A program made the translations under genes and the position numbers. From positions 1 through 29,430 of the IMG/VR virus record IMGVR_UViG_3300047562_002570: 29,430 nt of DNA; one strand, 5' to 3'. The notes beneath the pieces are model-generated. The model saw only the letters and a program-made list of their open reading frames with translations, did no database searches and was not told where the DNA came from. The DNA comes from a virus. Shown here piece after piece: positions 3,059 to 25,010 of the stretch. Positions within the stretch are counted from its first letter, which is position 1. Each line of letters opens with the position of its first letter.

Positions 3059-6000
3059 TTAATTTTTTATAATTTCAAACTGATGAATTTTTCCATTTGA
3101 AAATGCAACATAAAAAGTGTCAAAATCATATTTGTTTGTTAAACTTAATCCTACATTTTTTGTTTCACTTCCTACACTTGATCCTGTGTATCCAGAAAAA
3201 TCTCCATTATATAAAATTTTAGTAACATATAAATCTGAATTTTTATTTGTTAGAAGTGGATATGAATACTTTACTTTCTGATATATTGTAGATGCAACAG
3301 ATCTTCCAGTAAAATACATGTTGGGGTATGTATCTGCATTTAAAACAATTGAATTAGGTATATCTTCGGTTATTCTATAATCAACTTCATCTACATAATT
3401 TTTTATTCTTAAATTCTGGGGTCTGTTAAAAATATTTTCTCTAAACCTTACATTATAATAGTCTATAGAATCAATTTCCCAAGCAGTAGTTAATGGAATT
3501 TCAAAAACAGAACTACTTGCATATACAATAAAAATTTTATCCCCAGTAGAACTAAATTCCAAATTAACTGCCAAACTAGTTGTTTCAAAAAATGGAGAAA
3601 TTTCGGAAAGAGATTGAACTTTACAAAAATTAGCACTATCAACATCCCAATTTGTTGCTAAGTTCAATTGTATTAATTCATTAAAATATCCATTTTCAGA
3701 AAATACATAAAGTTTGGATCCATCTGATTTAAAAAATAATGAAGTCAAAGAAAAGTTAGATGGTGCAACATACTTTGAGTTATATATGCTCGCTATTAAA
3801 ATAGCAATTTTAGTTTTTAAATTTGTTTTTTTATTAAAAACATATTGACTTATGATACCTAAGTTTGGATTAGAAGTAGTATATTCAAATATTTGATAAA
3901 AATCGATAAAATAAAATTTAGTTAAGTCTGGTTTAAAAAATAAACCTTTAACTTCATTTGTAGTTTGTGAATAAATGTCTAATGTACCGACTGGATAACT
4001 AAATGATGATAATGACCATGATGGTGATAATGGAAAAGAAAGTAAAGTATTATTATAAATTGTATAAAAATTACTTCCAGAATTATTGAATTTCAAACTA
4101 TTAGATGATGAAATTCTATATTTAAAGTTTATTATACTTGAATTTGTTGGTGAAGAGGTATTTGATATGTCCCAATTCGTTGATAATGAATATTCTGAAA
4201 TTTTTCCAGTATTAGGGTTTGAAGTATATAGTTTTGATCCATCTTGTTTAAAATAAAAAGAATTCGGAGAATCTGTAAGTGACTTACTTACATTCGCATA
4301 TGCAAAATTTTCAATATTATATGGTGAAGATCCTTGATACTTATACAATGTATTTGAATTCAAAAGAAAAAATTCCGTATCATCTGGTTTGAAATGAATA
4401 TCAATTGGGGATGACAATGTTAATGGTAAATTAAGTATTTGGAGGTTTTGTATTGTTGTTACATCCCATGCTGTTCCCAAATTAAATGCAAATGTATCGG
4501 AATTTGTTGAAACAAGATATATTTTAGTTCCATCATCTTTAAAATAAAAGTCTGTAAAAGTTATATTAGGAATATTAATTAAAAAATTCTGATAAGAATT
4601 GGCATTGGGTGACCAAGAATTGAACGTCAGTCTGTATGGAGTTACAAGATCCATAGCCCTAATAAGTTGTTTTCCAGTGGCTTTGTTGGAAAGTAAATAC
4701 ACTTTATAACCATTACTTCCATATTTAAATCCAATCCACCGATATTTGACTCCATTTTCAGTGCCAACATTAAAAGCTAAATATCCCCACTGATTGTTTT
4801 CATTATCTGGTTCATAATCTTTTATTTGGAATGCAGTTCCACCAGATTTTAACTTTTGTTGATAAGCTACTGGTCCAACAGTTTGTCCACTACTTAATGA
4901 ATTATCCCACACTATAATTGTAAATCGATCTCCAGAGGGACTAAAATTCATACCAATTGGATCCCAAACCCCAATATTCATAGGAACGCTAGGAATGAGA
5001 TAGTTAGCGGCATTATACGTTATTCCAGTTATTGTCCAAACTGATGAAAGATTCCCTTGTCTAATTTCTAGGTTATTATAACGTGAGTAATAAAAATAGT
5101 TTCCATTAGGATCTATTGTGAACGCTCTTTGATAAACACTATCACCAGGAACATCTGAACTAGAATGAACAGTACCTGTAGTAATGTCCCACGCTGTTGC
5201 CAAATCTATTCTTATAATTCTACCATAACCCGAATTAGGATCAGTACCAGGTTGCCAAGAAGTTAATAAAAACAATTTAGATCCATTATCTCCAAAAAAT
5301 ACGTCTGCCACTGGAGATATTTTAATTGTTGAGGTAAAATACCAAAATTTTATAGGTACAAATTTTGCGGTAGAAACATCCCAATTAGTATCTAAATTAT
5401 GTTGATATATGGAATTTTCTGAAATACTTACTAAAAATAATTTAGACCCAGAAGAATTGAAATAAAAAGCATCGTGGGAAAAATAAAATTCACCTTTTCT
5501 TGTTGAACTTGTAGCCGTAGATATATCATATGCTACTGATAAACTATATTGTTCAATTTCGTTTAAACTTGGTGAAAAAACGTAAAGTTTATATCCACTA
5601 TCTCCAAAAAAACAGGAACTGGCACTTGTTGTTTGTGAACTTAAATCTAATTTTACAACTCCAGATGAATATGAATTTTGAACATTCCATGCAGAACTAG
5701 TACTTAATTGAAATATAAATCCAGTATCATTGCAAAAATAATAATTACTACCATCTGATTTAAATATAACATCATTTATACCGTTTGTTGAATAGTCATA
5801 CAAGTCAAAAGATTGCGGAGATGTACTACCATCTTTAAAAGTTCCAGTTGTAGAAAGATTATATTGATAAATTGTATTACTTGTTTGATTGACTGGATAG
5901 TATCGAGTAAAATCAGGTTTAAAGTTTATTGCGTTTAGGTTACTAACTGGTAAAGTGTATCTTGGATAAAAATCACTAGTACTTGCAATTGTTGATAAAT

Positions 6001-6733
6001 TCCACGGAACAGAAAGTTTTAATTTTTGAATAGAATCCGTATGATAAGTGTCGGTGTCTAAAGTATAACCATCAGAAACTATAAAAATAGAAGTTCCATT
6101 GTAATCAAAGTATAAATCATTTTCTCCAGATAAAACGTATGATGTTGAAGGTGATTGGGATTGAGTATTTTTTGGAATTGAGCATGATATGTTTTCATAA
6201 GCATATGATGATATTGACCATGGATTTGTAGAATTATAAAATTGAAAAATTTTACTTTCCGAGTAAGTATTACTACTATACGAATAAAGTTTAGTTAAAA
6301 CATATAATTTAGAACCATCAGGTTTAAAATAAATTCCACTTATTTGTGGATTTCGTGTACCTCCTCCTGGGAAAAAAATAGAATCTGGTAATGTGAGAGC
6401 TGATGACACAAACCCAGTAGATATATCTCCTCTGGTGAGTAAATTTATCTGATATATTATTTTTGTTCCAGTAGATACTCCATTTACATCATTGTTTGTT
6501 CCATTTTTAACTATGAAAATTTTGTCACCATCTACACTCATCACCATACATGTAACATGGGTAAATCCACCAATTGCAGAATTTAAATCTAAAGCTTTTC
6601 CAGAGTAAGTGTAACTATCAAGTTCACCATTATAATGTTGAATATTGCAGTTAGTCTCTGGTCTGTAAATTCCCAGTGAATCTGTCCTATTTCGTATATT
6701 GTTTCCAGTAAATCCTAATTTTCCGAGTTTCAT
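3059..6733 (-). CDS. Giant beta-propeller-repeat structural protein (putative adhesin)
   Basis: This 1224-aa protein is built from about 18 degenerate repeats of roughly 60 residues. Each is centred on a strand like F-F-K-x-D-G-S-K-L-Y-V followed by a second strand and a turn such as L-S-T-x-W-D-I-S. Examples are YFKPDGSKLYVL, VFFGDNGSKLFLL and LFFKSDGSKLYVF. The pattern is that of beta-propeller blades seen in phage tail-associated proteins. Eighteen blades would make two or three propellers. The first 40 residues (RNRTDSLGIYRPETN) resemble the start of the neighbouring 375-aa protein, suggesting a common virion anchor. The last 150 residues drift from the repeat and may form a separate tip. 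The gene starts one base after the stop of that neighbour. Host-surface binding is inferred, not shown. Confidence 0.7.
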   Translation of the reverse strand: MKLGKLGFTGNNIRNRTDSLGIYRPETNCNIQHYNGELDSYTYSGKALDLNSAIGGFTHVTCMVMSVDGDKIFIVKNGTNNDVNGVSTGTKIIYQINLLTRGDISTGFVSSALTLPDSIFFPGGGTRNPQISGIYFKPDGSKLYVLTKLYSYSSNTYSESKIFQFYNSTNPWSISSYAYENISCSIPKNTQSQSPSTSYVLSGENDLYFDYNGTSIFIVSDGYTLDTDTYHTDSIQKLKLSVPWNLSTIASTSDFYPRYTLPVSNLNAINFKPDFTRYYPVNQTSNTIYQYNLSTTGTFKDGSTSPQSFDLYDYSTNGINDVIFKSDGSNYYFCNDTGFIFQLSTSSAWNVQNSYSSGVVKLDLSSQTTSASSCFFGDSGYKLYVFSPSLNEIEQYSLSVAYDISTATSSTRKGEFYFSHDAFYFNSSGSKLFLVSISENSIYQHNLDTNWDVSTAKFVPIKFWYFTSTIKISPVADVFFGDNGSKLFLLTSWQPGTDPNSGYGRIIRIDLATAWDITTGTVHSSSDVPGDSVYQRAFTIDPNGNYFYYSRYNNLEIRQGNLSSVWTITGITYNAANYLIPSVPMNIGVWDPIGMNFSPSGDRFTIIVWDNSLSSGQTVGPVAYQQKLKSGGTAFQIKDYEPDNENNQWGYLAFNVGTENGVKYRWIGFKYGSNGYKVYLLSNKATGKQLIRAMDLVTPYRLTFNSWSPNANSYQNFLINIPNITFTDFYFKDDGTKIYLVSTNSDTFAFNLGTAWDVTTIQNLQILNLPLTLSSPIDIHFKPDDTEFFLLNSNTLYKYQGSSPYNIENFAYANVSKSLTDSPNSFYFKQDGSKLYTSNPNTGKISEYSLSTNWDISNTSSPTNSSIINFKYRISSSNSLKFNNSGSNFYTIYNNTLLSFPLSPSWSLSSFSYPVGTLDIYSQTTNEVKGLFFKPDLTKFYFIDFYQIFEYTTSNPNLGIISQYVFNKKTNLKTKIAILIASIYNSKYVAPSNFSLTSLFFKSDGSKLYVFSENGYFNELIQLNLATNWDVDSANFCKVQSLSEISPFFETTSLAVNLEFSSTGDKIFIVYASSSVFEIPLTTAWEIDSIDYYNVRFRENIFNRPQNLRIKNYVDEVDYRITEDIPNSIVLNADTYPNMYFTGRSVASTIYQKVKYSYPLLTNKNSDLYVTKILYNGDFSGYTGSSVGSETKNVGLSLTNKYDFDTFYVAFSNGKIHQFEIIKN

Positions 6734-21588: not shown

Positions 21589-23307
21589 TTATACTACCAC
21601 ATTATAGCAAGAGTATGAATATAATGTATAAAAATTATCAGGGTTAGATGAACGAATCATAGGAACATCTGTTAATGGCCCACTAGGTGAACCTTGATTC
21701 ATTTGAGGAGTTTGTTGTTGAGAGGATCCAGAAGAAGCATATATGACATTTGGTTTTGGTTCTGGAAGTTCCCCAACTTGAGGAGTTTGGGGAGGAACAC
21801 CTTGAATTTGATTGGGTTGTATTGGAGTTGATGCTTGTTCTTCCGAAGCAACATTATTATAACTTTGAATAAAATTATCAGTGTTTGCTGGTTGAAACAT
21901 TGATGCGGGATTAAAGCTAAGTTCCTTATCCTTAGACATAATTTCTTGATATGGTTTCATTTCAGAATTCAAAACAGAAGATGTATCTTCCTGTTGATTC
22001 ATTTGAAATGTATTATTAGCAGAAAGATTAAAAGCATTTGAGTAATCGGGAATATTAAGTTTTGGTTCAGAAACCATTTCACTCTGAGGAGCAGACTTTA
22101 ATTGATCAGTTTTTTGTTCAGCAGTTGATTCTATATTCGGTGGAGGTATAAGTTGTTCATTTGGTTTTGCTTGATTTTGTTGGGGTGTTTCTGGAGCTTG
22201 CGAAGATGGTAACGGTTTTGCTTGAGGTTTTGCCTCTGGTTTTGCTTGAGGTTTTGCTTGAGGTTTTCCAAAAAACTTATCATATATTCCTTTACCAAAA
22301 TCAGCAGATGGTCCGTAAGCGAAAGCACTTGTTATGAGTCCACTTCCAGGAATAGGTAATAAAGATCCTGCAGCAAATGCTGCGGCAGACCCAATCATTC
22401 CAGTAGTAGCACCTGCAACTGCTCTTCCAGGATCTTCACCACCAGCAATATCAAGTCCAGTTGCTAAAGAACCAACAGCTAAAGGTCCTGCTATACCTTT
22501 GACAATATTTCCAGCACCTCTAATAGCATTAGATGCAACACCCCCTAAACCACCAGGAGGTTTAGCACCTGGTGGTTTAGCGCCAGGAGGTTTAAAAATA
22601 TTCTGCACCATATTAAATGGTGCCGCTACAGCTCTTCCTAAAAGACCAACAACACCTCTAGTAATTCCAAATAAAGATCTTCTCAATAAAGAAAAACCAA
22701 ACTTTACAGAAAGAAGAATACCACCAGCGATTGTGAGATTTTTTATAATATTATTTTTAATCTCAGTTAATCTTTCAGTATTTCCTTTTCCTTCTTCCTG
22801 AATGTATTCAATAACTTGATTTGTCAACCATCCACCAAAAAGATAACCAAGAGATTGAAGGACATTTCCAAAAAGACCTTGAACTTTTGGCGCTATTCTT
22901 TCTACTGGAGCAACAATAGCAGCATTTATTTTTTTTTCTATTTCATTTTCTTTTCCAAGTCTTATCTGCTCTTCAGCGAGTCTTCTTTCACTTTCTTGTT
23001 TTGCTCTTAAATTTCTTTCTTCAGAAACCGCGTCTTGCTGTAAAAGCGTAGCAATACTAATTAATCCACCATTTAATTTATTAATATCCTCCCTAATCCC
23101 AAATATTCCACTCCGAATTTCAGTTAATAAGGGTTGATTTTGTAGAAGTGATTGAAGATTTTTAACTTCTACATCATTTGGTGGTGTAGCAGATAATAAA
23201 TTAGAACCTCTTATTGCTTGCCCAGATACTGAAGTATTTCTAGCAACAACTTGCCTAGACTCTTGAGAAAGAGGAGAACCTGTAAGTGGTGTGACTTGTT
23301 CAGCCAT
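21589..23307 (-). CDS. Tape-measure/hub-like protein (possible gp29 counterpart)
   Basis: 572 aa, following directly on the gp26-like chaperone and its frameshift extension, which is the usual place of the tape-measure gene. A coiled coil (about 90-130, RNLRAKQESERRLAEEQIRL) precedes LQSLGYLFGGWLTNQVIEYI, a Gly/Ala-rich hydrophobic region (about 190-345) and a Pro/Gln-rich disordered tail with repeats of PQAKPQAKPEAK. T4 gp29, the tape measure, is 590 aa, so the size fits, but I see no diagnostic gp29 motif. ATG 23307 overlaps the stop of the 58-codon frame (8 bp), pointing to translational coupling. The C-terminus ends in tyrosines and one cysteine. Confidence 0.5.
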   Translation of the reverse strand: MAEQVTPLTGSPLSQESRQVVARNTSVSGQAIRGSNLLSATPPNDVEVKNLQSLLQNQPLLTEIRSGIFGIREDINKLNGGLISIATLLQQDAVSEERNLRAKQESERRLAEEQIRLGKENEIEKKINAAIVAPVERIAPKVQGLFGNVLQSLGYLFGGWLTNQVIEYIQEEGKGNTERLTEIKNNIIKNLTIAGGILLSVKFGFSLLRRSLFGITRGVVGLLGRAVAAPFNMVQNIFKPPGAKPPGAKPPGGLGGVASNAIRGAGNIVKGIAGPLAVGSLATGLDIAGGEDPGRAVAGATTGMIGSAAAFAAGSLLPIPGSGLITSAFAYGPSADFGKGIYDKFFGKPQAKPQAKPEAKPQAKPLPSSQAPETPQQNQAKPNEQLIPPPNIESTAEQKTDQLKSAPQSEMVSEPKLNIPDYSNAFNLSANNTFQMNQQEDTSSVLNSEMKPYQEIMSKDKELSFNPASMFQPANTDNFIQSYNNVASEEQASTPIQPNQIQGVPPQTPQVGELPEPKPNVIYASSGSSQQQTPQMNQGSPSGPLTDVPMIRSSNPDNFYTLYSYSCYNVVV

Positions 23308-23476
23308 TATTTGATCCGTTCTTTAAATTTTCCTCTTCAATATACTGTTGGAGTAAAGAAACATAAACTTCCCTCTCCCATGGTATCATATTTTCTAAGT
23401 CTGTCAAGCTATATTTATGATGCTGAAGGAGAGCAAAGTTAATTTTATAATATGACGCAAGACTTTCATGCGCCAT
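23300..23476 (-). CDS. 58-codon frame, probable -1 frameshift extension of the gp26-like chaperone
   Basis: The frame begins at ATG 23476, 2 nt after the stop of the gp26-like gene and in its -1 frame, and ends in TGA at 23300, overlapping the tape-measure start. The peptide (MAHESLASYYKINFALLQHH to the end) includes ENMIPWEREVYVSLLQQYIE, similar in style to the T-domain of tail-assembly chaperones (acidic, with a Pro-Trp turn and an amphipathic helix). A slippery heptamer at 23485-23491 and a hairpin at 23452-23476 lie just upstream or overlapping, so it is likely translated mainly as a -1 fusion. The ATG is buried in the hairpin stem and has no Shine-Dalgarno sequence. Independent translation cannot be excluded. 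Confidence 0.65.
   Translation of the reverse strand: MAHESLASYYKINFALLQHHKYSLTDLENMIPWEREVYVSLLQQYIEEENLKNGSNNG
23412..23419 (-). promoter_or_regulatory. Possible late box (CATAAATA) inside the 58-codon frame
   Basis: CATAAATA occurs about 105 nt upstream of the tape-measure start, within the codons His-His-Lys-Tyr. It matches the boxes at 2185 and 2513, but it lies in coding sequence and could be chance. Confidence 0.3.
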
Positions 23477-23491
23477 TGCTATGCGAAAAAA
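23452..23491 (-). promoter_or_regulatory. Programmed -1 ribosomal frameshift signal
   Basis: On the minus strand the heptamer T TTT TTC (23491-23485) is in the 0 frame of the gp26-like gene, followed by GCA TAG. After an 8-nt spacer, ATGGCGCA (23476-23469) pairs with TGCGTCAT (23459-23452) through an 8-position stem with one G-U pair and a 9-nt loop. Slipping back one base reads CGC ATA GCA ATG and enters the 58-codon frame. This is the standard form of a bacterial or phage -1 signal. Confidence 0.7.
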
Positions 23492-24198
23492 GATGTTAAC
23501 CCTTCCAATACGATTTTGTTTTCAACTTCAGTATTTGGATTTTTCACATAAATTGTGTGAGTTAACTTTGGCATCGTTTCAAAAAAGTTCTCAATCTTTT
23601 TAAATTGCTTTGAACTCAATGATTCTAAAAACTCTGTGAGTTCTTTTTTAGTACAATCTGATGCTGACCAAGATTCTTCTTCATTAAAAATTTGCTCAAT
23701 ACAAGAACAAATAACAGCAAAAGTATCATCAACACTGATTTGATCGTTCCGAATAAAATTGTTTTTGATGAATTCTTGAATTGACGGATATTTCATTCTA
23801 AGGTTTAAATTATCATCAAGTTTAACATCTCTACTGTGCTTATCACTTACTTCAACTTTTATATCATCAAGATTAATAGTAACAGGCACTTGAGTTTGCC
23901 CATCATCTGGACAGGTAATCAATACTTCTGCAGTTTCACCTACAGATTTTCCTCTAATATTTAAAAATATATACTCAATATCAAATGTTGCTAAATTATC
24001 AATTTTAATTCCTCTTGTAAGAATGCAGTTGCTAATTACGTCCTTAACTGCCTCAGTAATTTGTTTTGGATCTTCACTCTCCATTGCAATGATCAGAATC
24101 TTTTCTTCTTTAACAAGAAAAGGTCTATATTTGATAGTCTTTTTTATCGATGGAATTTCCAACTCATAAGTTGGTGTAGAAACTTTTGGTAATGCCAT
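23479..24198 (-). CDS. 26: Baseplate hub/tail assembly chaperone, gp26-like
   Basis: The protein of 239 aa begins MALPKVSTPTYELEIPSIKK. I chose ATG 24198 over the TTG nine bases upstream because it is the better codon and gives the family-like start. The segment LVKEEKILIIAMESEDPKQI and the following QITEAVKDVISNCI are typical of the T4 gp26 baseplate family. It is thought to be an assembly factor rather than a virion building block, and its position between a tube protein and the tape-measure-like gene fits a gpG-type chaperone. Near residue 107 is a YxCP-like sheet (VLITCPDDGQTQVPVTI). The 3' end holds a -1 frameshift signal. The TCTAAATA late box at 24222-24229 lies 23 nt upstream. Confidence 0.72.
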   Translation of the reverse strand: MALPKVSTPTYELEIPSIKKTIKYRPFLVKEEKILIIAMESEDPKQITEAVKDVISNCILTRGIKIDNLATFDIEYIFLNIRGKSVGETAEVLITCPDDGQTQVPVTINLDDIKVEVSDKHSRDVKLDDNLNLRMKYPSIQEFIKNNFIRNDQISVDDTFAVICSCIEQIFNEEESWSASDCTKKELTEFLESLSSKQFKKIENFFETMPKLTHTIYVKNPNTEVENKIVLEGLTSFFA

Positions 24199-24221: not shown

Positions 24222-24229
24222 TATTTAGA
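24222..24229 (-). promoter_or_regulatory. Late promoter box (TCTAAATA) for the gp26-like gene
   Basis: TCTAAATA on the minus strand overlaps the TAA stop of the gp54-like gene and lies 23 nt from ATG 24198. The same octamer occurs twice in the divergent region at 25011-25051. One base differs from NATAAATA. Confidence 0.5.
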
Positions 24230-25010
24230 CTGCTTTTTGATTTCCAGTCAATGATGTATAAAGTTCTCCTCTTACAATTGCCTCTGTTGGAGTTAAGTTT
24301 GCTGGTCTAAACACAACACCTCCAGAAGGGACAGATCCTGGAGACATTGGAACTCTGTTTTGTGCAGGAGGACTTGAAACTGGATCTCTATTTTCAGAAG
24401 TATTATTAAAAACAGATATACTTGTAGTTTTTCCACAAATATAGCGATCATATTCAAAAGTTGCTGCAACTTTTAAAACGTCAGAAGTTCCATAAGAAAT
24501 AGGAATACTTGAAATTGCAACAGGAAACAAACCTCTAAAAGTGTATTCAATTTCACGATTATAATCTCTATCAAATTTTACAATTTTAGTTTGATTTGAT
24601 TTATAAGAGGAAGGGTATTGCATTCGAATGAAATAATCATTTGAAGTTGGACTTGATGCGGATCCACTTGAAATGTAATCCATCCAGTGCTCTAATAGTT
24701 TTAAAGTATTATAATTACTATCAACATAAAATTCAAGACCTATATTAGTGTAAAGTCTTGTATGTGCTATTTTTTCTCTGACTCCAATAAAAGGTGAAAC
24801 TTCTGCGACACCAAAAGTAGATGTTGGTAAAGATGCGGAAAAACACAGTAATCCAAAATCACCACCAGTGAACAATGGATTGATACCTTTTGTCAGTAAA
24901 AAAGTTGATAATTCTAAAGGTAACCCACCAAATTTAACTTCATAGTGAGATGACTGTGCTAAATTTCCAAATAAAGATCTTACACTTGATATACTTCTGG
25001 GAAGTGGCAC
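24225..25010 (-). CDS. 54: Tail-tube initiator-like baseplate protein (gp54-like)
   Basis: 261 aa with a tail-tube-like fold signature: SSHYEVKFGGLP at the start, VREKIAHTRLYTNIGLEFYVDSNYNTLKLLEHWMDYI in the middle (strand then helix, as in gp19-type tube proteins), and FRGLFPVAISSIPISYGTSDVLKVAATFEYDRY near the end. The last is the typical closing part of tube proteins. T4 gp54 (320 aa) and gp19 (163 aa) share this fold; length and the neighbouring gp48, gp53 and hub genes favour gp54. It could alternatively be a tail-tube subunit. The C-terminal 50 residues are Pro/Ser-rich. It is the first gene of the long leftward block, behind a divergent late promoter. Confidence 0.58.
   Translation of the reverse strand: MPLPRSISSVRSLFGNLAQSSHYEVKFGGLPLELSTFLLTKGINPLFTGGDFGLLCFSASLPTSTFGVAEVSPFIGVREKIAHTRLYTNIGLEFYVDSNYNTLKLLEHWMDYISSGSASSPTSNDYFIRMQYPSSYKSNQTKIVKFDRDYNREIEYTFRGLFPVAISSIPISYGTSDVLKVAATFEYDRYICGKTTSISVFNNTSENRDPVSSPPAQNRVPMSPGSVPSGGVVFRPANLTPTEAIVRGELYTSLTGNQKAV

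Follow-up and report, generated by a model that had tools for sequence, protein, structure and literature searches.

The window analyzed here, a record of 29,430 bases from a marine T4-like virus, taken as a whole, carries its tail genes on the minus strand, with the gp26-like gene placed between a tail tube gene and a 572-aa gene (Table 1). The gp26-like gene starts with ATG at 24198 and comprises 239 codons followed by the TAG stop at 23481-23479; in the comparison with PF12322 its product scored 248 bits against a family cut-off of 24.5. The lambda-like gene order proposed in the initial annotation held only in part: the upstream neighbor was identified as a tail tube protein by its matches to PF23849 and phrog_45, while the tape-measure identity of the downstream product was not confirmed, because a profile built from 66 homologues of the 23307-21589 protein matched neither T4 gp29 (HMMER, hhalign) nor the annotated tape measure of Cr30, so that "tape-measure-like" describes its position alone.

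Table 1. Features at the gp26-gp51 locus of the window.
Feature	Position	Strand	Evidence
Tail tube protein gene, upstream	24225..25010	-	PF23849 Phage_TTP_2 E=2.7e-17; phrog_45 tail tube E=8e-38
gp26-like gene, putative short chaperone form (TAC-N, G-like)	23479..24198	-	PF12322 E=1e-73; phrog_150 E=2e-79
SD-like GGAAGGG, with 8 nt between it and the heptamer downstream	23500..23506	-	anti-SD energy, codon choice
Slippery heptamer T TTT TTC	23485..23491	-	T TTT TTY kept in phase at all 171 related loci
gp26 stop TAG, one codon past the heptamer	23479..23481	-	sequence
Stem 5' arm ATGGCGCA, includes the annotated gp51 ATG (23476-23474)	23469..23476	-	pairing, covariation
Stem 3' arm TGCGTCAT	23452..23459	-	mutual information
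Predicted -1 extension, gp51-like C-terminal domain (TAC-C, T-like), 61 codons + stop	23300..23485	-	phrog_634 E=1.5e-25
Downstream 572-aa gene, tape-measure position, putative identity	21589..23307	-	no trustworthy family match

The AlphaFold2 model of gp26 (pLDDT 90) had its best PDB matches with 3fgx (Z 8.2), 2ob9, the HK97 tail assembly chaperone (Z 7.9), and 3klu (Z 7.3), 3fgx and 3klu being similar small folds; the next row had Z 5.2, and clearly unrelated structures scored no higher than Z 4.1. These Z values are middling, and the three matches cover approximately residues 1-94, i.e. about one-third of the protein. In Foldseek, too, 2ob9 and 3fgx ranked highest by probability, albeit with poor E-values. 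The predicted model supports a chaperone-like fold of the gp26 N-terminus. Profiles of gp26 and gp51 searched against the sequences of solved structures produced chance matches only, and the structure search with the gp51 model carries no weight, since it mainly matched relatives and small helical proteins.

The coding end of the gp26-like gene runs TTG GAA GGG, TTA ACA TCT, TTT TTC and GCA before the TAG, and the two bases CA separate this stop from ATG GCG CAT. The elements described in the initial annotation were read directly from the minus strand: the heptamer TTTTTTC lies in the gp26 phase near the stop (23491-23485), it is followed by an 8-nt spacer GCATAGCA (23484-23477) and by a stem of eight positions with a 9-nt loop, both arms of which were located (one of the eight pairs being G.U), and the -1 frame remains open for 61 codons past Phe-Phe, closing at 23302-23300 and overlapping the ATG (23307) of the next gene. 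A slip of one base back would read TTT TTT CGC ATA GCA ATG, and the -1 product would continue as SFF-RIAMAHESL. When only one sequence is considered, the heptamer by itself carries little weight, because the AT-rich window contains 22 copies of TTTTTTC, and this abundance favors a chance overlap, in which a T run ending an AT-rich gene happens to meet an open frame downstream with no function. Only two copies were in phase within the 14 main minus-strand ORFs, and a long -1 extension was present exclusively at the gp26 copy (61 codons vs 15 at the other). Elsewhere in the window, A AAA AAT occurs in phase beside the stop of the 1224-aa gene 3059-6733 (3059-3068, minus strand), and its -1 extension of 86 codons enters the ORF 2993-2802; as a second frameshift site it is probably a product of chance, the 63-codon ORF at this place having its own ATG.

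Relatives of gp26 were gathered from IMG/VR with four queries and complemented with named phages, which gave 171 loci with a readable gene end; clustering at 85% protein identity resolved them into 83 lineages, and at 60% into 24 clusters. An in-phase T TTT TTY near the gp26 end, together with an open -1 frame, was found in all 171 loci, in the form TTTTTTC in 145 and TTTTTTT in 26. The heptamer was invariant across the 83 lineages, also in the 24 clusters sharing less than 60% identity, and the length of the -1 frame varied from 57 to 73 codons in the loci not cut by a contig end. Loss of the heptamer or of the -1 frame in relatives, named in the initial annotation as evidence against the frameshift, was seen in none of these 171 loci. 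The same layout was present, among others, in P-SSM2, S-PM2, S-SRM01, MA01, Sinorhizobium phiM7, a Vibrio schizotequatrovirus, Phage C48C1, Nitratidesulfovibrio SRB7757, Caulobacter Cr30, Aeromonas phiWae14 and Variovorax V45v66. In six loci (L097, L123, L142, L143, L145 and L157), the gp26 frame was eight codons longer past the retained heptamer and overlapped the -1 frame.

The codon usage at this site was equally uniform. The first slippery Phe was TTT in 83/83 lineages, compared to 68% of the Phe codons elsewhere in gp26, and the preceding codon, although one of seven (AGT, TCT, GCT, GAT, AAT, ACT or CAT), ended with T in every case; other invariant Phe positions, including those of a second conserved Phe-Phe pair of gp26, mixed TTT and TTC freely. 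The codon-based probability of an invariant T TTT is about 10^-36, a rough guide which treats the lineages as independent. The comparison with relatives places the predicted signal far beyond chance.

Upstream of the slippery site the consensus is LEG, commonly coded TTG GAG GGA. The Shine-Dalgarno (SD)-like element was absent from the description in the initial annotation. In most relatives it has the stronger form GGAGGG, and the GGAAGGG copy of the window is weaker than most, with an anti-SD energy of -6.0 kcal/mol vs a median of -7.4 in the 83 lineages, which counts against the frameshift. The Glu of LEG was coded by GAG in 54 of 67 lineages, compared to 31% elsewhere, with P=6e-17 at 85% identity, 1e-4 at 75% and 0.01 at 65%, codon statistics which overstate the significance because the lineages are not independent. 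Pairing to the 16S rRNA tail was predicted at -7.9 kcal/mol, compared to -5.7 in synonymous recodings (z -11), with no comparable excess at control positions of the gp26 gene. The distance from the end of the element to the heptamer is 8 nt and that to the gp51 ATG 23 nt, the latter being too far for initiation, so the element suits a stimulator of frameshifting.

Downstream of the heptamer, the stem was paired in 95.6% of the cells in an alignment of 45 relatives. Both sides were changed in 22 cells vs 8.6 +/- 1.9 in shuffles, none of the 500 shuffles being as high, and versions of the stem slid along the alignment were at most 50% paired. One of the pairs alternated between G-C, U-A and A-U, with approximately 14 changes on the gp26 tree, and had a mutual information of 1.11 bits, while its next best partner within the tested span of 260 bases had 0.25. 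The distant lineages had other predicted folds, and the stem in its present form is therefore a feature of the close group, a limitation which also counts against the frameshift. The conservation of both elements suggests that the SD-like sequence and the stem are under selection as stimulators of the predicted -1 signal.

These compensatory changes, the conservation in 171/171 loci and the fact that synonymous sites are frozen here only already contradict, at the level of sequence comparison, the chance overlap considered above for the T run, to which we attach practically no credence. The two frames would also be fused if RNA polymerase slipped on the T run and produced mRNAs lacking one base, and the site is indeed a run of T, with at least seven T in 26/171 loci; in most loci, however, the run stops at six T and the next base is C, which is short compared to the runs known for transcriptional slippage. 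The fixed spacing of the SD-like element and the stem agrees with a slipping ribosome, and slippage of the polymerase appears extremely improbable.

Whether gp51 is a separate gene or an extension of gp26 depends on its start codon. The annotated ATG at 23476 has no Shine-Dalgarno sequence of its own (best -0.3 kcal/mol) and sits inside the stem. An early ATG was absent in 29/83 lineages, and 22/83 had no ATG, GTG or TTG within the first seven -1 codons, which means that a stand-alone gp51 cannot be general. In the close group, on the other hand, the ATG at the gp51 start is nearly invariant, as expected of a separate gene, which stands against the frameshift, although the same ATG forms three of the stem pairs. 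Translational coupling, in which ribosomes would stop at TAG 23481 and restart at ATG 23476 to make gp51 as a separate small gene, finds its arguments in this near-invariance, in the distance of only 2 nt between the stop and the ATG and in the public annotations, where gp51 has its own gene; it is nevertheless very unlikely, considering the missing SD, the many lineages lacking a start codon and the location of the ATG within a conserved stem, and it leaves the invariant heptamer and its phase without a reason. Restart at ATG 23476 could coexist with frameshifting in the close group. In the cyanophage records examined, gp51 is listed separately as "baseplate hub assembly catalyst", and it should probably be annotated instead as the extension of gp26 by frameshifting.

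The proposal of the initial annotation that a -1 frameshift joins gp26 to the small frame is thus strongly supported by the heptamer and the -1 frame in 171/171 loci, by the compensation in the stem and by the loss of start codons. Judged from the nucleotide and protein comparisons, the locus very probably uses a programmed -1 ribosomal frameshift similar to that of lambda G/G-T, which would yield two forms of the tail assembly chaperone, one short and one long. Most ribosomes would end at the gp26 TAG and release the short form of 239 residues, and a minority would pause on T TTT TTC, with GGAAGGG paired to the 16S rRNA tail and the stem downstream. The two Phe tRNAs would then slip back by one base, the TAG would be passed out of frame, and the slipped ribosomes would add the 61-residue gp51 domain (SFF-RIAMAHESL), resulting in a long chaperone of 299 residues. 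If the roles correspond to those in lambda, the tape measure protein would be coated by the short form, and the few long forms would bring in the tube subunits.

With lambda gpG/gpGT (PMC5009743) the locus shares a gene between the tube and tape-measure positions, a predicted pair of a short and a frameshifted long form and a predicted -1 shift near the 3' end. The lambda slippery site, however, is G GGA AAG, and the window has U UUU UUC accompanied by the SD-like element and the stem; the comparison concerns the gene layout and the frameshift. The -1 signals of the dnaX and IS3 type have the same arrangement of an upstream SD, a slippery heptamer and a downstream structure, but they use A AAA AAG in unrelated genes, in contrast to the poly-U of the window. 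The SD as a stimulator of -1 frameshifting is mentioned in PMC7618472.

T4 itself is organized differently. Both its gp26 and its gp51 belong to PF12322, as does gp26 of the window, and T4 gp51 consists of a gp26-like part and the gp51 domain of the window fused in one frame. The -1 extension also matched positions 242-278 of phrog_150, and phrog_634, its other match, is "baseplate hub assembly catalyst", i.e. gp51 of cyanophages. In a six-sequence database, to which the E-values refer, the extension profile matched the gp51 C-terminus of T4, Krischvirus and Aeromonas AS-gz with E from 4e-8 to 1e-13 and had no match to T4 gp26. T4 genes 26 and 51 are separate and divergently oriented, unlike the arrangement in the window, and T4 gene 26 has TTC TTT GAG instead of a slippery heptamer. 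Given the fusion, the separate genes and the missing heptamer, the T4 group appears to encode the short and long chaperones as two related genes, while the others use a frameshift. The comparison agrees with a simple course of evolution, with the frameshift retained in most T4-like phages and two related genes in the T4 group. Frameshifting is reportedly conserved in several T4-like groups, and T4 is said to use genes 26 and 51.

The G/G-T frameshift is widespread, with T4 listed as an exception in a 2016 review (PMC5009743). Vladimirov, Gautam and Davidson (Virology 2022, 566:9-15) reportedly identified the chaperone genes in T4-like phages. Citing this work, PMC10885494 states that some T4-like phages dispense with the frameshift and have a short gene together with a fused long one, and PMC12846349 describes poly-T slippery sequences as known in T4-like TAC-N genes. 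The suggestion of the initial annotation that the frameshift might be new for a T4-type gp26 has therefore to be withdrawn: frameshifting in T4-like phages is not new in kind, and, in view of these earlier reports, the signal in the window is a well-supported further case of a known mechanism. The evidence on the level of single elements, i.e. the conservation of the SD-like sequence and the covariation of the stem, may be new, and it marks clear testable positions. The chances are about even that the T4-like signal has three parts in general, with a heptamer universal in frameshifters, an SD-like element common to many lineages and a stem restricted to particular ones, and that many cyanophage "gp51" entries represent the C-terminal portion of a frameshifted protein instead of a protein made on its own.

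Three further loci (L183, L185 and L186), belonging to Ackermannviridae and a related Vibrio phage, had a gp26-like gene whose -1 frame downstream was open and contained a gp51-like motif (MPWH). They had no canonical heptamer, their gene ends carrying ATT TTC, GTT TTT or CTT TTC, and they may use a non-canonical frameshift site; a GTTTTT motif has been reported in other phage families (PMC12846349).
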